Shown here: piece by piece, positions 2,554 through 28,050 of the stretch
How the letters are laid out: each line of letters starts with the position of its first letter
How positions within the stretch are numbered: position 1 is the stretch's first letter
Assembly: GCA_023132135.1 (NCBI GenBank)
Contig: JAGLYR010000196.1
Span: 1 to 40,271, forward strand
Length of the DNA: 40,271 nt
Source of the DNA: Candidatus Eiseniibacteriota bacterium
Lineage (GTDB): Bacteria; Arandabacterota; Arandabacteria; JAGLYR01
Direction of reading: 5' to 3'
The notes under the pieces: generated by a model
Database searches by the model: none
What the model was told of the DNA's origin: nothing
The model's input: the letters and a program-made list of their open reading frames with translations, nothing else
Translations under genes and position numbers: made by a program

Positions 2554-4320
2554 CTACGCAACAACCAACGCACGCTTCGTGAGGCCGGTCACGCGCTCTT
2601 CGGCAAGCATCGCGTAGCCGTTGGCATGGGCGAAGTGATCCGGGCCGCTTGCCGCCATCGTCTCTCGCGTGGTGTCCCGGTCCGGGTCATACGTTTTGAT
2701 AAGCTGTAAGTTCGCATGGTGCTGGGCGAAGGGAATCAGCCGGTCACAACGGTACGGGAGGTCAAGCTGGTGTGTTATGATCTCATGGCAGACCAGCTTC
2801 AGGTGCGAAGTCCGGTGAACCGTCACCTTCGCCTGCTTCGGTTGCCATGCCGGACGGTAGACCTTCGACCCCATCTCTGAAGAAGGGTAGAAACAGGAAA
2901 AGACCTTCCCGGGAAACCAGTTGAAGAGCATCTGGTTCCGGTCCCTGCCATAGCCGGCGTCGCAGACCAACAGCTCTCCGCCAAGTATCTTAAACAGCTC
3001 CGCAACTCGCTTCGGGTGCTCCAGGGGATTCTTCGCGTCGATCATCTCAATGTAGAGCAGCCGGCTGCGACCTTCATACGGCCCGCGAGCCACAAACCAC
3101 GACACGTCGCCCCAGTCTACCCCACAGGCAACCCGGCCATGCGTCCACGGCCCCCTTGAACCGTCTACCCAGCCCAGGTCTTCGTTGCAGCATTGGAAGA
3201 CCATCTCTTCGGTGAGAGTGACGTCCTCGGAGACAAACGGCTCGCCCAGCACTTCGTTCCGCCACTGATTCTCGAACCGGAAATCATCCCGCTTGTCCTT
3301 CAGTTTCTGGGCAGAGATCCACGGCGCCATCGTCTGACTGATCTTCCAGCTTGAACGCCGGGGCAGCACAGACGGATTCAACGGTATCCAGTGGCCCCCG
3401 TGGTGGCCCTGTGTGGCATTCAGGTGAACGGAGCGATCCATCGGCAGGCCACACTTCGGACAGCCGAAGTACCACTTGTCTCCGGGGCCGGCGAAGAAAT
3501 CCTCCGATCGCTTGCCGGCAGGAACACCCAGGATACAGTCGGGCCATTCGATCTGACCCTCCCAGCCACAGGAACACTTGTAGTGCCATGTGTGTTGCGA
3601 GCCGCTCAGGAAGCGGCCATGAATCAGCGTCCGGGGCATCGTCGGCGTGGAAATCCGGTGTTTCACCCCAAGCTCGGAGTGACTGGTGGATTCACTGAAG
3701 ACCTGTTCCGACTTTGGGTTGGCAGCGTCAAACTCGTCGAAGGTGATCTTGTCGCAGGACGGTGATCTTCCGGCAAAGTCGCACCAGGAAGAAACCAGAG
3801 TGTAGAAGCTCGTGCCGAGTTGCTTCATGAGGACATTGTCGGCCCCGCCCGTGCTCTTGGCGTCCACGATCTTGCTGGTCAGATACCGGCTTTCCTTCAC
3901 TGCCAGATTCAGGCGCTCCCGGCCGAAACGGTTGGAGAGCGAGTCAGTTGGGAAGACGTGCATGACCACGCTGTACGGGACCACGTCGCAGAGAAACAGG
4001 TTGTCATTCAGCTCCGTCTCGGAAATCTCCATCTGGCGGCTCTTCATGGTGTCCTTGTCCAGCGCCGCATCTGCCAGGTACTCGGGCAGATACGGCCGTG
4101 CGCCGCCGTGCATGTAGGAGAATGGCCGGCCCCGGAGCCTACGGACCGCGACAACCCATTGGCGAATATCCCCGTGAAGATATTGTTCCCGGCCCCTCAC
4201 CGAAGATATGTTCGCCAGAGACCTACTTGCCCAGTCTTCCGGCAATGTCTGGATGTCCGACCAGACTTGATCGTAGGGACCCGAAGAGCTCTTCGAGTTG
4301 CGGACTGAGTTCTTTTGCAT
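2554..4320 (-). CDS. Terminase large subunit, GpA-like
   Basis: This is the ATPase-nuclease motor that packages DNA through the portal. The length (588 aa) is usual for the family. Visible motifs are a Walker B ITFDEFD (192-198), a zinc ribbon with Cys249/Cys251 and Cys287/Cys290, and RNase H-like nuclease acidic residues at Asp402 (GVDWGD), Asp454 (CDAGYG) and Asp561 (PDHF). The P-loop position holds KSRQMEIS (93-100) instead of a canonical GKT/GKS. The ATG at 4320 has an AGAAGG site 6 bases upstream and overlaps the small terminase gene by 98 bases, which is long. A downstream TTG at 4245 lacks a ribosome site. The portal gene follows directly, as in most tailed phages. Confidence 0.92.
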   Translation of the reverse strand: MQKNSVRNSKSSSGPYDQVWSDIQTLPEDWASRSLANISSVRGREQYLHGDIRQWVVAVRRLRGRPFSYMHGGARPYLPEYLADAALDKDTMKSRQMEISETELNDNLFLCDVVPYSVVMHVFPTDSLSNRFGRERLNLAVKESRYLTSKIVDAKSTGGADNVLMKQLGTSFYTLVSSWCDFAGRSPSCDKITFDEFDAANPKSEQVFSESTSHSELGVKHRISTPTMPRTLIHGRFLSGSQHTWHYKCSCGWEGQIEWPDCILGVPAGKRSEDFFAGPGDKWYFGCPKCGLPMDRSVHLNATQGHHGGHWIPLNPSVLPRRSSWKISQTMAPWISAQKLKDKRDDFRFENQWRNEVLGEPFVSEDVTLTEEMVFQCCNEDLGWVDGSRGPWTHGRVACGVDWGDVSWFVARGPYEGRSRLLYIEMIDAKNPLEHPKRVAELFKILGGELLVCDAGYGRDRNQMLFNWFPGKVFSCFYPSSEMGSKVYRPAWQPKQAKVTVHRTSHLKLVCHEIITHQLDLPYRCDRLIPFAQHHANLQLIKTYDPDRDTTRETMAASGPDHFAHANGYAMLAEERVTGLTKRALVVA

Positions 4321-4924
4321 TCTGCGCCTTCTCTGTGAGGGCCAGAATTACCTCTGCATAGACATTCCCGCCGACCCCACCACCCCCGTCGCCGGCAGCG
4401 GGTGCGCTGCCCTTCTGTTCAACCCTGGCCGTGTCGATGATGTCACAGACGGCCTTCAGGTAGGCGGCTACACTTACATCGCCGTTCGCAAGCTGTGTCC
4501 CCAGATACCCAAGCGCCTCCGGAACCCTGTCAATGGCGTGGCTGGCTACGAAGGTCAGCGCCTCAAGACGGGCCTCTTCCGTCCTGACAATCCACTTCAG
4601 CCGCTCCTGCTCCAGCGCCCGGCGCGCCTCCCGGATCTGGCTGTCGAATTTTATCCCCCACGTCTGAAGCGTCTGAAGGCTCTTGGGGTGCTTCTTGAAC
4701 TTGCCGACCAGCTCCTTCTGGATCTCCCGGAAGGATACCTCTGTTGCCATCAGGCGGATGAACTCGTCCAGGAGCCCCGGGCTGTATCTTTTCATCTTCA
4801 TACCGGGAGAGGGTTGGAGGCTGTTCCCCCTCATGTGCGCCGGCACCCGCGGCCCCGGGCTCCGCTGCTTCTTCTTCCGTTTCCGGGTTTTCTTGTCCGG
4901 CCCCCGTGTCTTCTGCTGATTCAT
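4223..4924 (-). CDS. Probable terminase small subunit
   Basis: The frame is open from 4987, but the ATG at 4924 has a GGAGG site about 8 bases upstream and gives a 233-aa protein. It begins with a very basic stretch rich in Lys/Arg, followed by a helix-turn-helix-like region (YSPGLLDEFIRLMA then SFREIQKELVGKF) and long charged helices, and ends with a Gly-rich linker and a short acidic tail. Position just before the large terminase and the DNA-binding-like N-terminal half suggest the small terminase, which recognises the packaging site and hands DNA to the motor. I rely on context as much as sequence. Its 5' part overlaps the preceding gene's frame for about 360 bases. Confidence 0.7.
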   Translation of the reverse strand: MNQQKTRGPDKKTRKRKKKQRSPGPRVPAHMRGNSLQPSPGMKMKRYSPGLLDEFIRLMATEVSFREIQKELVGKFKKHPKSLQTLQTWGIKFDSQIREARRALEQERLKWIVRTEEARLEALTFVASHAIDRVPEALGYLGTQLANGDVSVAAYLKAVCDIIDTARVEQKGSAPAAGDGGGGVGGNVYAEVILALTEKAQNAKELSPQLEELFGSLRSSLVGHPDIAGRLGK

Positions 4925-5264
4925 CTTCCTGTCCTCCGGCTCCATGAAGCAGGCGGCGAATCTCCGCCCGCGCCCTGGCTGATTCATCGCCAGTGAGTCT
5001 CACCCCGTCCATCCGTCGGCCCGTGTAGAGAACCAAGGCGGTTTCCCGGTAGTAGTTAGCGGCCTGAGCCAACCGTTCGTTGCTGCTCAGGATCGCCCGA
5101 ATCAGATCCTCCGAATCACGGATGATACTCTGGGAGGCCCACATCAATCGCTGCTGGCCCCACATTAGAAACTCCAGCAATTCGGACTCGCGCCGGCTGC
5201 TTCTCACCCGGAATGGAGTTCTCCGCGGTGGGAAGTACGAACCCTTCTTCCTCTTCTTGCCCAT
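4563..5264 (-). CDS. Unknown basic/helical protein overlapping small terminase
   Basis: The frame is 233 codons long from an ATG at 5264, with a weak G-rich ribosome site. The first ~110 residues look like real protein: a basic start (MGKKRKKGSYF), then helical sequence with Trp/Met (LMWGQQRLMWASQSII) and LAQAANYYRETALVLY. After about residue 113 (position 4924) the frame overlaps the small terminase gene and becomes Gly/Pro/Glu-rich, which looks like translation of the wrong frame. Either this gene truly overlaps its neighbour, or it is joined to it by a frameshift (programmed, mutational or a sequencing error). I do not recognise the family. Confidence 0.55.
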   Translation of the reverse strand: MGKKRKKGSYFPPRRTPFRVRSSRRESELLEFLMWGQQRLMWASQSIIRDSEDLIRAILSSNERLAQAANYYRETALVLYTGRRMDGVRLTGDESARARAEIRRLLHGAGGQEDESAEDTGAGQENPETEEEAAEPGAAGAGAHEGEQPPTLSRYEDEKIQPGAPGRVHPPDGNRGILPGDPEGAGRQVQEAPQEPSDASDVGDKIRQPDPGGAPGAGAGAAEVDCQDGRGPS

Positions 5265-5288: not shown

Positions 5289-7508
5289 CTACGGAAACGT
5301 ACCTATCGTGTCCCTGTCCACAAGCTCGCGCGGAGCGCGGCCGCTCACGTCAGGGTGGATCCCCTCCCGAATCAGAACCCACTCGTCCAGAACTGTCTCC
5401 GGGGCCTTGTTCAGCCCCACATCCACAATCCGGCAGTACGCACGCCGGCCATTCATAATCATGTCATACACATAGGTAGTGGTATCGGCCTCACGGTAAG
5501 TAGTCTGACCATGCTTGTACTCTGTGTGGCCCTGATACCAGTTAAGCAGAACCCCACGGTCGAGCAGAAGCGTGTCGGGCTTCCCGCACAGGTGGTTCAT
5601 GATGTGCCCAACCCGCCATGTCGAGTCCGCCGGCGGATCCCCTTGGTCCCAGTACCACCGGGGCCACCAAGTAACGTCCATCATGCGGTCGCGTGCCCCG
5701 CCAAGGCCAATGTAGACAGCCGTGGTCTCAGCGAGATAGACAAAGGGGGAGTCGGCGGCCCAGCCCCCGGAGTCGTGAACCGCATTGTGTATCCGCTCCG
5801 TGCGATACCCGACGTGCTGATCCCCGGTGAAGATGCAGTCGAAACCGCCCTGCTCCAGTTGCCAGCACCAGCCCGGGTCATACCGGGCATCATTCTGGTT
5901 CGGTCTCACCGCCTCATACAATTCACAGCCATAGATCGGCCGGTGGGCAGCCGCCAGCTTCCAGGAATCCGCCGGCAGCGTTACCGCCGCGTGTTGCACG
6001 AAGTTGTACTGGCGAGAGCCGGGGATCCCCAGACTATCATTCTCTCCGCCCTGGCCGGTGTAGCAACCATCGTGGGTGAAGCCGCCTACCACATTCTGAA
6101 GAGCCAGGAAGAAGAGCGCCCCGTTACCATAGGACACCTGATACCACGTCTCGGCTGCCAGGGGGTTTGCCCGACCGTCCGGCGGCACATAGGACTGAAT
6201 CCCGTTCCAGCCAGCCGGCGCCCCCGACGGTTCCCAGTTGCCGCAATCTGGAAGCCACTCAATATCTGTACTCAGGTGATCGTCAATCGCATTGTGGTAG
6301 TCGGCCTGCTGGTCGTTGTCGATAATCATGTCGCCGCAGTCGAACAGGGCTATCGGGACCGGGTTCGTGAGAGCCGAGACCCAGTCCAGTTGTTGCTCCA
6401 GTTGCTCAATCCGCTTCGCGTTGGTCAGTCCCAACTGACCACCCGGCCCGTGGCCGCCCACATGAGCATCCGCAATGCCACAGATCCGAAGGCCAACCGT
6501 TCTCCGGGGAATCACCTGCTCTGTCAGTGATCCGCCCATGCCAAGGCCGCCGTCCATCCCCAGGAACATGCTCCCGGTGGATTCGGTCCTGACTGTGGAG
6601 GTGTCTACGTAGTCGATGATGAACTTCGGGCGCTTGGAAGTATCCACCGTGTACTCGGACGATGCATAGCCCCACGCCATTGCACACCGGCTACAGGTCT
6701 CCGCTTCCATCGTCCAATCATTCAGAAGATAGCCGGCAATCGTGAGAGAGTCGTAGCACGAATAAACCCACGGGCGGGTCAGATCAAAGGAGTGGTTTTC
6801 ATCGGAGCCAACGTAGGTCATCACTTCATCACATGAGGATGTACGATCTCCGCACCCTTCCGGCTCATAGTAGTAGGAACGCTCTGAACAGCCCCACCTA
6901 CACCATGACGAATCCGGGGTATAGCCTTCCCGGTAACACAGCCAGTTCGCTTCGTCCAGATCCGCAGCAACCCAATCGTTGTCGCCTACACCCCACCACG
7001 GGAGGTGACTGGTGGCAAAGTATCCCCGCGCAGTAACGGCGGCGCTTTCTATCAGGGTTGTCACCGGGCCAGTCGGATGTTCGAGAACACTCATAACAAG
7101 AGTGATGTGATTGATCGCGGCGTTTTCGGGGAGAATGTCTGCGAAGTCGCACCGAAGAAGTACCCGGCTGCTGTCGCTCTGGCAACCCGTGGCCTTGTGG
7201 ATCCGCCCACACCAGAGGGTGTCATCGGCCCCAAAGTTCAGGGTGTTGTAGCCGCTACAGATCCAGGTGTCCTCGATGCCATTGTAGAGCGGATCCGGCG
7301 ATACCCCGTTCTGGAGCACAAGACTTTCGCCTTCGGCCTTGTCGGAATAGCCAAACAGCAAAGCCAGAAGCAGGAGAGATCCCACCGCCAGCGCAATACC
7401 CCATATCACGGTCCTTGTATCCCTCCGGCGCATCGCCGTCTGTGTTTCCTCAGTCTGCTCAACTTTGCCCCGCTCCCGTGCCTGGCGGAGTCGTTTCCCC
7501 TTGCCCAT
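5289..7508 (-). CDS. Membrane-anchored metallophosphoesterase with DNRLRE-like domain
   Basis: The ATG at 7508 has GGAGG 8 bases upstream and overlaps the previous stop; the frame itself extends to 7550. The protein is 739 aa. A basic cytoplasmic start leads to a hydrophobic segment at about 33-54, so the rest should face outside the cytoplasm. Residues ~70-300 follow the pattern of DNRLRE surface domains (NFGADDTLWCG, RVLLRCDF, late YVDTS). The C-terminal half has calcineurin-like phosphoesterase motifs: ADAH near 347, GDMIID near 390, AAHRPIYG near 520 and GDQHVGY near 560. That suggests a two-metal phosphatase/phosphodiesterase of unknown substrate. It has many cysteines. Lying between the late promoter and terminase, it is probably expressed late. 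Confidence 0.8.
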   Translation of the reverse strand: MGKGKRLRQARERGKVEQTEETQTAMRRRDTRTVIWGIALAVGSLLLLALLFGYSDKAEGESLVLQNGVSPDPLYNGIEDTWICSGYNTLNFGADDTLWCGRIHKATGCQSDSSRVLLRCDFADILPENAAINHITLVMSVLEHPTGPVTTLIESAAVTARGYFATSHLPWWGVGDNDWVAADLDEANWLCYREGYTPDSSWCRWGCSERSYYYEPEGCGDRTSSCDEVMTYVGSDENHSFDLTRPWVYSCYDSLTIAGYLLNDWTMEAETCSRCAMAWGYASSEYTVDTSKRPKFIIDYVDTSTVRTESTGSMFLGMDGGLGMGGSLTEQVIPRRTVGLRICGIADAHVGGHGPGGQLGLTNAKRIEQLEQQLDWVSALTNPVPIALFDCGDMIIDNDQQADYHNAIDDHLSTDIEWLPDCGNWEPSGAPAGWNGIQSYVPPDGRANPLAAETWYQVSYGNGALFFLALQNVVGGFTHDGCYTGQGGENDSLGIPGSRQYNFVQHAAVTLPADSWKLAAAHRPIYGCELYEAVRPNQNDARYDPGWCWQLEQGGFDCIFTGDQHVGYRTERIHNAVHDSGGWAADSPFVYLAETTAVYIGLGGARDRMMDVTWWPRWYWDQGDPPADSTWRVGHIMNHLCGKPDTLLLDRGVLLNWYQGHTEYKHGQTTYREADTTTYVYDMIMNGRRAYCRIVDVGLNKAPETVLDEWVLIREGIHPDVSGRAPRELVDRDTIGTFP

Positions 7509-7509
7509 A

Positions 7510-7923
7510 CTAGAAGCCTCCGCGTAGAACCACGTCAGCCGTGCCCCCACTCTCGCCGGACTTCACCCGGATTGAATCCACAGCACAGCGTTTCCAGACC
7601 TGCCCTTCGCCGGCAATGAGCCTGATCCATCCCGTAGTATCCGAGTAGGCGCCGTAGAACTTGACCCAGAGTGTCCCGGCACGACAGATGAACCACGCTT
7701 CGTTAATCTGCTTCGAGAGATCGCCCGTGTCCACGGCGTACTTCGTGAAGGTGCTGGTCAGGTTCAGATCGGTGAGTACCCGCTCGCAGGGATAGGCCCC
7801 GGATACGGGAGGACCGAGACACGTATCGGCCTCGGCGGGTCTCAGCTCATTCATGACCGAACCTGCCACGACCAACAGGACGATCATGGTCCAGATAATG
7901 TCCCGATTCGAGACGCGTCGCAT
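7510..7923 (-). CDS. Small exported or membrane-anchored protein, first gene of the late operon
   Basis: The ATG at 7923 has AAGGGGG about 6 bases upstream. The 137-aa product has a basic N-terminus and a hydrophobic segment (IIWTMIVLLVVAGSVM) followed by a mainly beta-strand-like domain ending in GTADVVLRGGF. The end resembles small virion decoration or fibre-associated beta domains, but I do not recognise a family. It is the first gene after the promoter and terminator at 8131-7965. Its stop overlaps the ribosome site and start of the phosphoesterase gene, so the two are translationally coupled and probably act together outside the cytoplasm. Confidence 0.75.
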   Translation of the reverse strand: MRRVSNRDIIWTMIVLLVVAGSVMNELRPAEADTCLGPPVSGAYPCERVLTDLNLTSTFTKYAVDTGDLSKQINEAWFICRAGTLWVKFYGAYSDTTGWIRLIAGEGQVWKRCAVDSIRVKSGESGGTADVVLRGGF

Positions 7924-8771: not shown

Positions 8772-9104
8772 CTACTTGTTATCCATATCGTAATACTTGT
8801 CCGTCAACCGCAGCTTCAACCAAGAGACAACACGGTGCTTCTGTCCATCCGTAAGTCCCCGCACTCCCTCAAAGACCCGGCGCATTGCCAGAATCTCCGG
8901 GTCCGGCTCCGGCACGTTGCGCCTTCCAAGCCTCTCAACCGGCGAGCAACACGGCCGGGGATCCACAACCCACTCAAGCGCCTCAACCATCGCGTACGCC
9001 AGATCCCATTGCTCGGTATTGAGAGTCCTCGTTGCCATTGCCTCACTCAACCGGGCCAGCTCCTTCTTCGCACGTTCACGAACAGCGTTTTTCTTCACTT
9101 TCAC
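8772..9104 (-). CDS. Unknown small protein
   Basis: I prefer a GTG start at 9104, with a GGGGGAG site 5 bases upstream; the frame is open to 9170 but the ATG at 9134 has no ribosome site. The product is about 110 aa, basic at the N-terminus (VKVKKNAVRERAKKEL) with amphipathic helices and a PRPCCSP motif in the middle. It has no recognised family. It overlaps the 3' end of the upstream gene by 29 bases. Confidence 0.65.
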   Translation of the reverse strand: MKVKKNAVRERAKKELARLSEAMATRTLNTEQWDLAYAMVEALEWVVDPRPCCSPVERLGRRNVPEPDPEILAMRRVFEGVRGLTDGQKHRVVSWLKLRLTDKYYDMDNK

Positions 9105-9690
9105 CTGTGCTCCCCCTTCCTTCCGGTGGGCCATTAGCCGACAAGAGACAACCGCCGCGGAGCTCGGCAACGTCCATCAGGAGAAGTTTGACCTCAACCG
9201 GCATCCCCATGCGCGTCAGATCGTTGTCAAGAATGGTAGCCGCTCGCTCCCCGAATTTCTTGAGGACCTCAGCATCCTTGCCGTATATCTCTTTGATATC
9301 CTCCACCTGCCGGAGCAGATCCTCAAGTCCCTCTTGGATCAGCCTTCCCTGGTCCCTCGGATCCGGTTTCTGCTGCTGAAACTTTCCCGCTGGCTCTGCC
9401 TCCGGTGCGTAGCGACCGACATCCCACAGAAGCACCAGTGCATCCTCTGTCCTTTCTGCTATTTTCCTGCGCCCTTCGTGGTGATTCGCTGTGGTGCTGC
9501 GATCTCTCCGGGCATCCATTACCCTATCGAACCGCCTCTGCGCGTCTGTTGCCACTGAGCCGACAAGCGCGAGAAGAGCGCGGCGGTCCTTCTGGTGTTG
9601 CTTCCTCAAGGCAACGCCTAGCCATTGTTGATTATCGCGTTGTTCTCGCTCCCGAATCTCATTCACTTGCTCGAACGTAGGTATCTTCAT
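9076..9690 (-). CDS. Unknown protein of a small paralogous family (copy 1)
   Basis: The product is 204 aa, highly charged and helical. It starts with ATG at 9690, overlapping the previous stop by four bases (ATGA). It has no recognised domain. Its segment RALLALVGSVAT followed by a later GRYAPE resembles RSLLALIDSVAT and KFAPE in the next upstream gene, and RALIATIRSLAA in the gene at 10806-11075. I read these as diverged paralogues. The C-terminal half contains DLLRQVEDIKEIYGKDAEVL, likely a coiled coil. Confidence 0.7.
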   Translation of the reverse strand: MKIPTFEQVNEIREREQRDNQQWLGVALRKQHQKDRRALLALVGSVATDAQRRFDRVMDARRDRSTTANHHEGRRKIAERTEDALVLLWDVGRYAPEAEPAGKFQQQKPDPRDQGRLIQEGLEDLLRQVEDIKEIYGKDAEVLKKFGERAATILDNDLTRMGMPVEVKLLLMDVAELRGGCLLSANGPPEGRGSTGESEEKRCS

Positions 9691-11358: not shown

Positions 11359-11877
11359 CTACACCCCCGCTAGTCTGTCCCCTCCATCCGGCGGATCCAC
11401 AATTAGCACCTGCGCAACCCGAAGTATCTTGCCCCATTCATGGAACGGCCGGCCATAGAGACCGTCAGGCTCGTCTAATTTGTCCCGCTTGTAGTTCGCC
11501 ATGAGCCCTGGCAGGTTTTCCAGCGCGGACGCCAGATCCCCCAGAAGATCGTTTCCAGACCGGAGATCATCAGCGATTGCCATATTCGTAGTGAGCGCCG
11601 CTTCCGCTGCCTTCTGTCGTATCCAGCCATCGACCTTCTCACGCGAGCCGCGTATCTCCATCGGAACGTGCGCGTACATGTATTGTGCATACGCCACTAT
11701 GTTCTGCTGGTTCTCTCCGTCGGCCCTTCCTATGGCCTCTGTCAGATTGTTCGCGAACACCGCTTCAAGAAAATCTCCCGGCGGTATCCCGTGCTCGACA
11801 TACCTCCGAATCGCATCCATCATTCCCTCTCGGATGTAGAACTCGTTGAAACAATAGACCTTCCTGTTACTCACCAC
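11359..11877 (-). CDS. Conserved phage protein of unknown function
   Basis: The product is 172 aa. GTG codons at 11877 and 11874 both follow GAGGAGGGG. The first ~80 residues (YIREGMMDAIRRYVEHG, PPGDFLEAVFANNL, then MEIRGSREKVDGWI) match a pattern I remember from many small phage proteins that act before DNA replication, but their function is not known to me. The C-terminal half is less familiar. It sits immediately downstream of the methyltransferase gene and overlaps it slightly. Confidence 0.7.
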   Translation of the reverse strand: MVSNRKVYCFNEFYIREGMMDAIRRYVEHGIPPGDFLEAVFANNLTEAIGRADGENQQNIVAYAQYMYAHVPMEIRGSREKVDGWIRQKAAEAALTTNMAIADDLRSGNDLLGDLASALENLPGLMANYKRDKLDEPDGLYGRPFHEWGKILRVAQVLIVDPPDGGDRLAGV

Positions 11878-12847
11878 GCCCCTCCTCGCCGCGCCTATGC
11901 CGGCGCACTCTCGTTTTCATCCGCCGGCGGAATCTCACCGCCGCTTGCAATAACACCGGCGGGGTAACAGCCCGGACAACGTCACCCGCGCTCGGGAACC
12001 TCCGCTGGACCCTGGGGGGCTTGTAGTAAGAACGCCCACCGGACACACGCTTCAGGTAGCCGCTCGGATTCCATGTCAGGAAAAACGATTCCCTGGAGCG
12101 GTCCGGCACGAAGCTACCGTCCTCCATCAGAAACGTATCAATGGCTTCGTAGACCCCGGGCCGCGGCCCCAGGCTCAGACCGTGGCCTCCACCAACGCCA
12201 TCCTCCACTACGAAGTAGCTCCCGTGCGACACAAGTGGGCTAAACGTCCGCAGCACGTTCAGAGTATTCTCGTAGGTATGGGAGCTGTCTTCGACTATCA
12301 AACACCGGGACCGCAAGGGGATCAGCCGTATAACGGTGTCGATCAGACGACAGGCATCGCCTTCGAGTAAGGTCACTCGCGGGTGGGCCCGGACTACGTC
12401 TGCCGTCAACGTCTGGTTCTTGTCGATCCCGATGACAATGCCGTGGCCCAGCACATCGAGCAGATGGGCGAATTGCAGCGTGCCGGCGCCGCGGTAGGAT
12501 CCTATCTCGATAATAACATCCGGCCGGAGCTCACAGATCATCTCCTGATAAACCCACGCATCCAGCGGATTCCTACGGGCTGGCACACCGAAATATCTCG
12601 ATCTATCCATGACCCTCCGGTGGACCAGGTTCAGCACATCCTTTGCCGTCAGGTAGAGCGTCTCGCTCTGTTGAAGAAACGGGCCGTTGTACTGTCTCAT
12701 TCTTCCCCCTGGACGCGGTTGTAAGCGGTCAGCAAATCCGTGTCTATCAGCCTCGTTCTTTCTGATGGACAGCACCATCCACCCGGGGAGCTGTGCCAAG
12801 GAAAAGGATTCCGGGGCCTCGTCATAGGATCCATATGGAATACTCAT
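11867..12847 (-). CDS. CmcI-family SAM-dependent methyltransferase-like protein
   Basis: The product is 326 aa. The core follows the cephalosporin hydroxylase (CmcI)/rhamnosyl O-methyltransferase pattern: YQEMI near 100, IIEIGSYRGAG (110-120, the SAM-binding loop), IGIDKN near 141, VEDSSHTYEN near 190, YFVVEDG near 211 and LTWNPSGYL near 256. Bacterial relatives usually methylate sugars or antibiotics; the substrate here is unknown. The C-terminus is very basic (RRRMKTRVRRHRRG), perhaps for membrane or nucleic acid contact. The start overlaps the preceding membrane-protein stop (ATGA), so the two are probably coupled. A cargo gene modifying cell-surface glycans is plausible. Confidence 0.85.
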   Translation of the reverse strand: MSIPYGSYDEAPESFSLAQLPGWMVLSIRKNEADRHGFADRLQPRPGGRMRQYNGPFLQQSETLYLTAKDVLNLVHRRVMDRSRYFGVPARRNPLDAWVYQEMICELRPDVIIEIGSYRGAGTLQFAHLLDVLGHGIVIGIDKNQTLTADVVRAHPRVTLLEGDACRLIDTVIRLIPLRSRCLIVEDSSHTYENTLNVLRTFSPLVSHGSYFVVEDGVGGGHGLSLGPRPGVYEAIDTFLMEDGSFVPDRSRESFFLTWNPSGYLKRVSGGRSYYKPPRVQRRFPSAGDVVRAVTPPVLLQAAVRFRRRMKTRVRRHRRGEEGRGE

Positions 12848-13275
12848 TGCCTCGCCTTCGTACCCATCCGGGTCTGTCCGCTACAGCGTGTCAGTATCTC
12901 TATGTCACGGTCCAACCGCAGCACCCGATTCCCGAAAGCATCCATTCTTCTCGTCAGCCGTTGCTCTATCTGCACGTCCCTCTTCCGGCTGGAATCGTCC
13001 ATCTGTATCCCTTGACGGTACACCGCCTTCGAGAGAGCGGCACAGTCCAACAGCACTTCGGCAAGCGTCGTAGGAATACTATCTGCCGATGCAGAGATTG
13101 GAACAACCCGCCCATCCACACCCGCATAGACATACTGCAAGCTAGGCCATGTATCCATGAGCGTGATCTGCGACGCCTCAACGGTGAGATTGTCCAGCCG
13201 GCCAGCCAACTGACCAACACGGAGAGACAGCACCCCCAAACCCAATACGATTGCTACAAGAATCCAGTTCCTCAT
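12844..13275 (-). CDS. Membrane-anchored or exported small protein
   Basis: The product is 143 aa. The N-terminus MRNWILVAIVLGLGVLSL is a signal anchor or signal peptide. The rest is polar with a helical, charged C-terminal half that could form a coiled coil. The ATG at 13275 overlaps the nuclease stop and the gene's stop overlaps the methyltransferase start. No family is recognised. The pairing with the methyltransferase hints at an envelope function. Confidence 0.7.
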   Translation of the reverse strand: MRNWILVAIVLGLGVLSLRVGQLAGRLDNLTVEASQITLMDTWPSLQYVYAGVDGRVVPISASADSIPTTLAEVLLDCAALSKAVYRQGIQMDDSSRKRDVQIEQRLTRRMDAFGNRVLRLDRDIEILTRCSGQTRMGTKARQ

Positions 13276-13943: not shown

Positions 13944-14248
13944 CTCACACTCCCCCTCACCCGGCCCGGTGATCCCCAAGGCCGCGGCGCCAGTTCCTTC
14001 GGCTCGGTTCCGTCCCCGCGCACGTCTGCACTAGACCCTACCGCCACCTCAGACGATGTTTCGTTCTCCCGACACAGGCTCAGTTTGCCGCCACCGTTTC
14101 CGGCTCGGTTTGCTGCCGCCCGTAGACGGGTATCCTCTCGGATGCAGAACGTCTGACACTCCAACATCTCCCAACACTTGAACCTGTTGTACCGGCAAAC
14201 CACCAGACCGGGTAATGACTTACTCCCCTCCCTCATCTCCGCTTCCAT
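13940..14248 (-). CDS. Unknown small cysteine-containing protein
   Basis: The stop at 13940 overlaps the GTG start of the nuclease gene, which supports the frame. The start is uncertain: ATG 14248 or 14236 are possible, and both overlap the upstream gene. A cluster of four Cys (CRYNRFKCWEMLECQTFC) may bind metal. The rest is Gly/Arg/Ser-rich and probably disordered. No family is recognised. Confidence 0.5.
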   Translation of the reverse strand: MEAEMREGSKSLPGLVVCRYNRFKCWEMLECQTFCIREDTRLRAAANRAGNGGGKLSLCRENETSSEVAVGSSADVRGDGTEPKELAPRPWGSPGRVRGSVR

Positions 14249-14456
14249 CATCCTCCCCGTGTGGGCCAACACCAGGCGGGCAGATATCCAGCACGCCCGT
14301 TTGCACGCTGATGACCTCACCCGGCATGTACCCAATGTTTTCGACCTCCGGGCTCGTCATCGACGCCAGGTAAACATCCCAGAGGAACGGTAGGGAGTTC
14401 AGGCCAATCGCCAACGTCAACAGCATCGTTACCACGAAAAGCCGTTTCGTCTTCAT
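14220..14456 (-). CDS. Small secreted protein
   Basis: The ATG at 14456 has GGAGG 7 bases upstream. The 78-aa product begins with a signal-peptide-like MKTKRLFVVTMLLTLAIGL and ends in an acidic Gly-rich tail (GEDDGSGDEGGE). No family is recognised. It is one of five small or large products in this window with an N-terminal export signal. Confidence 0.68.
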   Translation of the reverse strand: MKTKRLFVVTMLLTLAIGLNSLPFLWDVYLASMTSPEVENIGYMPGEVISVQTGVLDICPPGVGPHGEDDGSGDEGGE

Positions 14457-14457
14457 G

Positions 14458-14688
14458 TCAGACCTCCAATCCTTTCACCACCACATCTGCCCGCTGTACG
14501 AACCCGCACTTTGGGCACGTCACTGTTGCCCATCCAATCCGCGTATCACGCTGCTCTACCCCCCTTGATGTCGGCCTACCTGTGTCGGGTTTTGTTCTGG
14601 AGTGGGTAAGCCCTCCAGCATGGTCATTCACTGTCCCGCTCCCCGGCCGCAACCTAGCTAGATCGGCGATGCTCTTGAATAACGACAT
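14458..14688 (-). CDS. Small protein with one zinc-ribbon half
   Basis: The ATG at 14688 shares a base with the preceding stop (TGATG), so it is coupled to the XRE regulator. The 76-aa product has a CPKCGFVQRADVV knuckle near its C-terminus, the only Cys pair. It may form a zinc site as a dimer. Function unknown. Confidence 0.65.
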   Translation of the reverse strand: MSLFKSIADLARLRPGSGTVNDHAGGLTHSRTKPDTGRPTSRGVEQRDTRIGWATVTCPKCGFVQRADVVVKGLEV

Positions 14689-15362
14689 CAGACCTCCAGG
14701 CAGCGAAGCAGATCCTCGACCAACACACCCGCTGCGGTGACGCCATCTGTGTGATTGTGAATGATCCTTGCAAGATCACAGAGACCTGACCTTTCCTCTG
14801 CTGGGGAGGGGTTCGTCACTTTTGGAGCATTGTCTTGCACCAACACTCCTCCGAGCCGTTGCTCAAGCGCGCGCACGTTCTTCTCCAGTTGCTCCATAGC
14901 AGCAGCCAGTCGGCTGCACGCTGCTGTTACCTGTGATTCCTTCGCTGCCAGCTTGTCCCCTATATCCACTTTACCCTCCTCGGTTCCAAAACCTTCCGTT
15001 CCTGTTAGAACCTTCATCGCCTGTGTGTAAGAACACTCCCGCGTCAGCCGCAAGAACAAAGCGAACTCGCGGGGGTGCTGTCGAATAATCCCCAGCAAAT
15101 CCGATGATACCTTCCCAGCCAGAGCCAGGAGCTCGTCTGGATCGTCGCCTAGCTCCCTGGCAATCGCAACAATCTTGTCCTCCGCCGGAGGCACAAATAC
15201 CATTCGCTCTATCTTGCTGAGATACGTCGGACTCACGCCAATCTTCTTGGCGAACTGGCGCAGCCCAATTTTCTTCTGGGTTCGTAGCCGGCGGACTCTT
15301 TCGCCGAAGCGATCCTCATGAAGACGGTCGAGATTCCGGCCACCCGTGCTTCCCAACCCCAT
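14688..15362 (-). CDS. XRE-family helix-turn-helix regulator
   Basis: The product is 224 aa, from an ATG at 15362 behind GGGGAG. Residues ~18-80 are an XRE helix-turn-helix: FGERVRRLRTQKKIGLRQFA, then GVSPTYLSKIER, a strong recognition-helix pattern, followed by DDPDELLALAGK. The middle (GDKLAAKESQVTAACSRL then MEQLEKNVRALEQRL) looks like a coiled coil for dimerisation. It probably binds an operator within the phage genome; candidates are the palindromes at 17809-17869 or 20281-20310. I cannot tell repressor from activator. Confidence 0.88.
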   Translation of the reverse strand: MGLGSTGGRNLDRLHEDRFGERVRRLRTQKKIGLRQFAKKIGVSPTYLSKIERMVFVPPAEDKIVAIARELGDDPDELLALAGKVSSDLLGIIRQHPREFALFLRLTRECSYTQAMKVLTGTEGFGTEEGKVDIGDKLAAKESQVTAACSRLAAAMEQLEKNVRALEQRLGGVLVQDNAPKVTNPSPAEERSGLCDLARIIHNHTDGVTAAGVLVEDLLRCLEV

Positions 15363-26982: not shown

Positions 26983-28050
26983 CTAGTTATCGTAAGGCCG
27001 CTTCACCAGGATCCACGCGAAAACAACCTTGAAAGGTTCACAGCTGGAAGACCTGACAACGAAACTACTCCCGTCGCGCTCGTCTCGTGGTGCGTACAGA
27101 GTTCCGTAGCAACAATTCTGCGGCGTGACGGTGATCGCATCCCGGTAAGTGGCCGGCACAGAAACCGTGACGGAGTTGTTGCTGGCGGGTATGGAGTCCA
27201 GCCCACACCACGACGGGGGATCCCCGGTTCCTACTGTCCCGTAAACCCAGAGCGAATCATTCGCATCTGCGCCCAGGACTGAGTACCCGCCGGCTTGACC
27301 GGAACATCCTATCCTGAACGCTTCCTTGTGCGCGGAGTCGGCGTAGACCCAGAGATTTTTGCCAAGCCCGTAGGTGGCGCCCTTCGCTTCGTTATAGAAC
27401 ACACCTCCATACATCGACGCGTGCGCCGGCCCGAGTACAACACTGTAAAAGTTCTTCGGGCCACTGGCCGAACTCATATCCGGGTATCTCTCACCGATGA
27501 TCCTGATACCGGGGCCGTAGTGGTTATCTGATGTCGGTATGCTCCAGTCGGCGCGCGGGCCAGCGTAGAGCTTCAGAACGCCGGGAACATGAGTGGTGTC
27601 GTGTTTCCCGAAACCCAGCCAGACGGAACCGCTATCTACGCGGATCACCGGAAGGTTGTGGTCGTGAGCAAATACATGGCCGCTGTGAGGGAGCCAGAAG
27701 TTCGCGAAGGAACTGTCCAACAGTGTGTTCACCCATATGTCGTACCAGCCGGCCGGGATTCGGTCAATCAGGTACATACCGCCTGATTCCTCCGAAAGTG
27801 TGTCCAGCCGTGTGTAGATCCCGGAGCCGGCAACTGACTGGGCCGGATCCCCGAGCACGGTACTGTCCGCGGGAAACGCTGCGATGACCTCAGCGTACCG
27901 TGCGGCCCGGCCGTTGACTTCAATGTAGAGCCGGGTCCGCTGGATCGTCTGCCCCCCTGCTTCTGAACCGTACATTTCCAGTGAGCAGGCAAGGGCCACG
28001 ATGATACAGCCCCACACCACAATCTCCGCAACGATCCTACTCTTCTTCAT
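26983..28050 (-). CDS. Membrane-anchored fibre-like protein
   Basis: The product is 355 aa from an ATG at 28050 after AGGGGG. The N-terminus (MKKSRIVAEIVVWGCIIVAL) is a signal anchor or signal peptide. The beta-rich body is followed by a C-terminal domain (SVTVSVPATYRDAITVTPQ then VFAWILVKRPY) that matches the tip of many tail fibres. Ordinary fibres have no export signal, so this one may be displayed on the cell surface, or the helix may be used in the virion. It sits in the tail gene block. Confidence 0.72.
   Translation of the reverse strand: MKKSRIVAEIVVWGCIIVALACSLEMYGSEAGGQTIQRTRLYIEVNGRAARYAEVIAAFPADSTVLGDPAQSVAGSGIYTRLDTLSEESGGMYLIDRIPAGWYDIWVNTLLDSSFANFWLPHSGHVFAHDHNLPVIRVDSGSVWLGFGKHDTTHVPGVLKLYAGPRADWSIPTSDNHYGPGIRIIGERYPDMSSASGPKNFYSVVLGPAHASMYGGVFYNEAKGATYGLGKNLWVYADSAHKEAFRIGCSGQAGGYSVLGADANDSLWVYGTVGTGDPPSWCGLDSIPASNNSVTVSVPATYRDAITVTPQNCCYGTLYAPRDERDGSSFVVRSSSCEPFKVVFAWILVKRPYDN

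Follow-up and report, generated by a model that had tools for sequence, protein, structure and literature searches.

A phage gene beside the terminase genes combines a predicted membrane anchor, a DNRLRE-like domain and a metallophosphoesterase domain with tryptophan at the catalytic histidine position

A single gene adjacent to the packaging genes of a contractile-tailed phage encodes a predicted membrane-anchored protein in which a DNRLRE-like N-terminal half is joined to a calcineurin-like metallophosphoesterase (MPE) half. The occurrence of these three elements in one phage gene beside the terminase, as put forward in the original prediction, was confirmed and found to be conserved in two other phages. 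The leading explanation, to which we give about an even chance of being right, is that the protein is an inner-membrane-anchored, periplasm-facing phage MPE that modifies the envelope of the infected cell; the parts of this explanation that we infer are the orientation in the membrane, expression late in infection, the binding of metals, the class of substrate and the biological role.

The window analyzed here, 40,271 nucleotides in length, is an entire contig (JAGLYR010000196.1, C108) of a 3.4-Mb, 345-contig genome bin of Candidatus Eiseniibacteriota, with the phage assigned to this host by binning only. The contig is a fragment of a contractile-tailed phage, carrying genes for a portal protein, terminase large subunit (TerL), probable terminase small subunit (TerS), ERF annealing protein, and HTH regulator, as well as a tail cluster (25.7-39.6 kb) with baseplate J, baseplate spike, tail lysin, and sheath genes. 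No terminal overlap or repeat was found at the contig ends, and the phage is incomplete, since no capsid genes were identified on it. The HTH regulator (14688-15362, minus strand) is of the Cro/C1 type and hints at a temperate or regulated life cycle. Also encoded on the minus strand are a CmcI/rhamnosyl O-methyltransferase-like protein (11867-12847; PF04989, E = 2.8e-31), which may be a phage enzyme that modifies sugars, and two further small proteins with N-terminal transmembrane segments (12844-13275 and 14220-14456).

The open reading frame at 5289..7508 on the minus strand (ATG at 7508, stop codon ending at 5289) is a real gene with a product of 739 aa. It is preceded by a GGAGG ribosome-binding site 8 nt 5' of the ATG, it has full-length homologues in two other phages, and the probability of a 740-codon open frame arising by chance at the local GC content is ~1e-11. 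Its codon-position GC agrees with that of the TerL, sheath, and baseplate genes in the window, and comparison with relatives indicates purifying selection (pN 0.32 versus a saturated pS of 0.78), with pN ranging from 0.32 to 0.42 against saturated pS across the phage relatives. The plus-strand reading of the same interval was rejected, as it contains overlapping chance frames only. The stop codon (TAG) of the upstream gene ends at 7510, so translational coupling of the two genes is probable. This upstream gene (7510..7923, minus strand) encodes a 137-aa protein with four cysteines and a predicted signal peptide (hydropathy 2.19, likely cleavage after AEA), and a relative with 44% identity in a two-row alignment is encoded upstream of the MPE gene on the phage contig L005 (8520-9071). 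Between that relative and the MPE gene, L005 also contains small exported-looking ORFs at 9074-9316 and 9177-9629 (lipobox-like LAGC).

Full-length homologues of the DNRLRE-MPE protein were located via TerL synteny and then alignment patterns in two independent IMG/VR phage contigs, L005 (61 kb; 56% identity) and L003 (6.7 kb; about 40% identity, 38% by BLAST), both of which retain the domain architecture and the position beside the terminase. Patterns of peptides taken solely from the window protein gave no match in IMG/VR, nor did either homologue in a tblastn search of INPHARED phages, and sets of 98 and 386 genomes spanning the domain yielded no full-length relative beyond the window's own contig. 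Outside this contig, a profile built from the three phage proteins matched only separate MPE or separate DNRLRE proteins in the 386 genomes, and so the two halves are independent modules, the fusion of which is seen only in these phages among the collections searched.

The three phages share the gene order DNRLRE-MPE gene, small basic protein, TerS-like protein, TerL, and portal-like protein. In the window, these neighbors are all on the minus strand and comprise the conserved small basic protein (4563..5264; similar ORFs by eye at L003 2353-3099 and L005 12247-12882), the probable TerS (4223..4930; preceding TerL, with similar ORFs by eye in the same place in L003 and L005), TerL (2554..4320; phrog_675, E = 4.9e-88; PF05876), and a portal protein truncated by the contig end (1..2536; an open ORF after TerL, with a similar ORF after the L003 TerL). 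The location of the gene in a contractile-tailed phage contig, just ahead of the TerS, TerL, and portal genes, is confirmed, but the late promoter originally proposed is not: candidate sites occur at chance level (2 found versus 1.9 expected), and late expression of the gene is suggested by gene order only.

Membrane anchoring, also part of the original prediction, is borne out by a 19-residue transmembrane or signal-anchor segment (residues 34-52; 7353..7409, minus strand), whose mean hydropathy of 2.62 was reached in 0 of 20,000 shuffles of the N-terminus and which has a comparable counterpart in both phage homologues. The 33 residues ahead of this segment include 11 K/R and 5 D/E. According to the positive-inside rule, the basic flank of a transmembrane segment stays on the cytoplasmic side (N-in, C-out), and therefore the C-terminal 687 residues are expected to face the periplasm. 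The basic stretch is long and no clear AXA site is present, which favors an uncleaved anchor over a cleaved signal. LpxC (E = 1e-99) and eight Omp85 matches mark the genome bin as diderm; of the surface placement that had been proposed, the sequence supports the membrane anchor and the periplasm-facing orientation but not exposure on the outer surface. Cysteine accounts for 2.6% of residues in the three N-terminally exported candidates of this phage versus 1.0% in 19 others (p = 1.7e-5, for a comparison chosen post hoc after the proteins had been inspected), a richness that would be expected in an oxidizing compartment, but few cysteine positions (C84, C251, and C482) are common to all three phage MPE proteins.

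A Sec-directed fiber-like protein, odd for a phage assembled in the cytoplasm, may be encoded elsewhere on the contig. The gene at 26983-28050 (minus strand), which follows the genes for baseplate J and a gpI-like protein, is in tail-fiber position, and its product has a hydrophobic, signal-peptide-like N-terminus and seven cysteines; in a relative from the L005 phage (L022:1468-2745), the N-terminus is a textbook signal peptide (ALAQS).

The N-terminal half of the DNRLRE-MPE protein (approximately residues 79-302; 6603..7274, minus strand) resembles DNRLRE domains, which are beta-sandwich-type domains found in secreted as well as adhesive proteins. All three phage proteins match NF033679 (17.7, 25.1, and 20.6 bits; E = 2.8e-3 for the window protein, 1.5e-5 and 3.8e-4 for its homologues) below the curated 34-bit cut-off that defines membership, and the half is classified here as DNRLRE-like on the basis of remote homology. 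The profile-profile comparison with three cellular DNRLRE domains (hhalign probability 97.1%, E = 6e-11) upholds the domain as first proposed.

For the C-terminal half (approximately residues 338-716; 5361..6497, minus strand), the window protein on its own had no domain match in sequence searches of Pfam, PHROGs, and PDB. However, PF00149 was matched by L003 (25.5 bits) and L005 (24.9 bits) above the cut-off of 21.5, and the window protein, whose own score is below this cut-off, is assigned to the family through its 38-56% full-length identity to these two proteins. A comparison of the phage MPE half with four cellular lipoprotein-type MPEs by hhalign gave a probability of 99.4% (E = 1e-21), while a PDB search with the three-phage profile returned nothing meaningful. 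An AlphaFold single-sequence prediction of the full protein reached a pLDDT of 33, and a low-confidence model of the MPE half from a seven-sequence alignment (mean pLDDT 51, pTM 0.62) shows the expected order of strands and helices. In Foldseek searches with this model, purple acid phosphatases were the best solved matches (probability 1.00, E = 8.5e-5 to 3.6e-4), followed by VPS29 as the second-best class and also CD73, and the best match in the viral library was Bacillus phage G gp352. Fold and homology thus point to membership of the calcineurin-like superfamily, though not to an active phosphatase.

The nearest cellular relatives of the MPE half are single-domain MPEs with lipoprotein-type N-termini and a full GNHE motif, and named relatives occur in Ca. 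Eisenbacteria and Gemmatimonadetes MAGs. The host bin encodes eleven PF00149 proteins, one of which, on contig C17, is of the phage-domain type, and by sequence the solved-structure relatives of the host MPE are purple acid phosphatases (3zk4, 6git). Several of the cellular proteins (L007-L009, L013, and L016-L020), from Eisenbacteria/Gemmatimonadetes-type MAGs, make up a lipoprotein-like MPE subfamily, unnamed so far, in which GDQH replaces GHxH.

The superfamily signature has been given as DX[H/X]-GDXX[D/X]-GNH[D/E]-[G/X]H-GHX[H/X] (PMC3407115). The corresponding minus-strand motifs of the window protein are D-A-H (6462..6470; D347 and H349, predicted metal-1 ligands), G-D (6330..6335; D393, predicted bridging ligand), G-N-W-E (6231..6242; N424, and W425 replacing the catalytic histidine), H522 (5943..5945; predicted metal-2 ligand), and G-D-Q-H (5814..5825; D563 and H565). 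The residues D347, H349, D393, N424, H522, D563, and H565 are invariant across the three phage proteins and four cellular ones; none of the seven metal-ligand positions is lost, with Asp563 at the first histidine of GHxH, as in the cellular GDQH subfamily. Being common to the phages and these cellular proteins, GDQH is a subfamily trait, and the aspartate could still bind metal. Of the calcineurin-like catalytic motifs proposed originally, the ligand positions are therefore retained, but GNH[D/E] reads GNWE and GHxH reads GDQH.

The catalytic histidine of GNH[D/E] is tryptophan both in the window protein and in L005, whereas L003 and all cellular relatives have GNHE. An assembly error was ruled out as the source of GNWE, which is encoded with different codons on the independent contig L005 (56% identity), and a single H-to-W change on the branch leading to the window protein and L005 would be the simplest history. 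In other superfamily members, this histidine is important for catalysis with most substrates; YfcE, however, has cysteine at the position and keeps phosphodiesterase activity, and histidine mutants of Rv0805 and CthPnkp retain activity on bis-p-nitrophenyl phosphate (PMC3407115). Given its replacement by tryptophan, a role of the GNWE protein as a plain phosphomonoesterase is unlikely, and a phosphodiesterase-like or scaffold role appears more plausible. The claim of an active phosphoesterase is accordingly weakened, MPE homology standing while the catalytic histidine is tryptophan in this phage and its nearest phage relative, and the suggestion that the protein releases phosphate is the one least compatible with the loss. 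Between the two GNW proteins, identity is 76% around the ligands versus 57% in the rest of the domain (p = 0.013, a small sample), arguing that the pocket is probably still in use, and the pattern fits a pocket retained for a changed task; the window protein and L003, by comparison, are about as similar around the ligands as elsewhere in the domain (45% versus 44%).

In the favored explanation, the protein would be exported by the Sec pathway and held in the inner membrane, facing the periplasm, by its N-terminal signal anchor, with the DNRLRE beta-domain positioning it, probably through binding of an envelope glycan or protein. The purple-acid-phosphatase-like C-terminal MPE domain would bind two metals and act on a phosphate-containing envelope substrate, a phosphodiester being likelier than a phosphomonoester given GNW. 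Alteration of the infected cell's envelope late in infection may then hinder superinfection or help release.

The strongest competitor, less probable but to be taken seriously, is that in the window and L005 proteins the MPE fold has become a pseudo-enzyme scaffold of the same general kind as VPS29. It would then be an envelope-anchored binding module without catalysis that might mask a phage receptor or form a complex in which the co-exported small protein takes part. Phe63 of VPS29 presumably occupies the GNH histidine position, much as W425 places an aromatic residue at the pocket of the phage protein. VPS29 has the MPE fold, is reported to be inactive as a phosphatase and to serve as a protein-interaction scaffold using Phe63 at the metal pocket, and has lost the bridging aspartate, which is Asn39 (PMC3101248). 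A scaffold role is suggested by tryptophan at the catalytic histidine position in two phages that are 56% identical and by the rank of nonenzymatic VPS29 as second-best class in the fold search. Unlike VPS29, however, the phage protein retains the bridging D393 and every other ligand position, so it was not placed in the VPS29-like inactive class despite the aromatic W425; it also has an export signal anchor and is fused to DNRLRE. The conservation of the ligand surroundings above background between the two GNW proteins, together with GNHE in the third phage, likewise argues against an inactive scaffold.

A broader variant of the envelope reading, which we regard as rather improbable, is that a Sec-exported, cysteine-rich set consisting of the DNRLRE-MPE protein, the coupled 137-aa protein, and the fiber-position protein (26983-28050; L022:1468-2745) remodels the infected-cell surface; the exported fiber-like module would mask the receptor, and the W-for-H MPE would be a phosphodiesterase or a metal-dependent binding module.

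Ranked lower still, and doubtful in our view, is a phosphate-scavenging auxiliary metabolic gene: an ectophosphatase, taken over from a lipoprotein phosphatase of the host, with which the phage would draw phosphate from organic phosphorus for its DNA synthesis. In its favor, the nearest cellular relatives are single-domain, lipoprotein-type GNHE proteins, with one in the same bin, and the fold resembles that of purple acid phosphatases. However, a general phosphomonoesterase would hardly be expected to lack the GNH histidine, and the place beside the terminase suggests expression too late for DNA synthesis. Moreover, neither PstS nor any other phosphate gene was recognized in the set of window proteins that was scanned, and scavenging leaves the added DNRLRE domain unexplained. 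The last and least probable alternative is a virion structural protein, for example a receptor-binding protein of the tail or head that combines DNRLRE and MPE domains and whose hydrophobic N-terminus acts as an attachment helix. This would suit a gene within the packaging and structural region, the occurrence of DNRLRE domains in secreted and adhesive proteins, and the hydrophobic N-terminus of another candidate tail-fiber protein of this phage. The gene is not part of the tail cluster, however; signal anchors typically look like this 19-residue segment of hydropathy 2.6 behind a basic stretch of 33 residues, and a signal peptide is also present in the coupled neighbor.

Phage MPEs, purple-acid-phosphatase-like ectoenzymes, and DNRLRE proteins are each already known, while neither the collections nor the open-access papers searched contained a fused, membrane-anchored phage MPE with GNW. 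Closest are the lipoprotein-type MPEs (L007-L009, L013/L002, and L016-L020; PF00149), with which the phage domain shares DxH, GD, GN[H/W]E, H, and GDQH, as well as PGSxQ and YGxExY stretches and the V[IV]D...D domain end; they differ in being single-domain proteins that are not phage-encoded, with GNHE intact and no DNRLRE domain seen. Purple acid phosphatases (human, pig, and rat TRAP; plant PAPs) are the best fold match of the modeled MPE half. Their motif set is DxG / GDxxY / GNH[D/E] / VxxH / GHxH, in which a Tyr coordinates Fe(III). In contrast, the phage domain has DxH rather than DxG, no Tyr after GD, GNW, and GDQH, and membership of this family was ruled out by the ligands DAH, GDMII (no Tyr), GNWE, AAHR, and GDQH.

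In most descriptions, phage MPEs are enzymes of the cytoplasm directed at DNA. A membrane-anchored, purple-acid-phosphatase-like MPE with a DNRLRE domain beside packaging genes, with His replaced by Trp in one lineage, would, if true, represent an unrecorded phage route to the host envelope, and the phages provide a natural GNH/GNW pair for probing the role of that histidine. Among DNRLRE domain-containing proteins (NF033679), the cellular domains align end to end with the phage N-terminal half, and the phage proteins differ in their sub-cut-off scores and in the fusion to an MPE; one DNRLRE protein, without MPE, is listed for an Aeromonas phage (PMC12512217). The MPE fold is likewise found in other phage proteins, including Bacillus phage G gp352, SbcD/Mre11-type exonucleases, and a crAss-like MPP (PMC7886860). 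The SbcD-type phage enzymes are cytoplasmic and DNA-directed, whereas the DNRLRE-MPE protein is predicted to be membrane-anchored and appears close to ectoenzymes of the purple acid phosphatase type.
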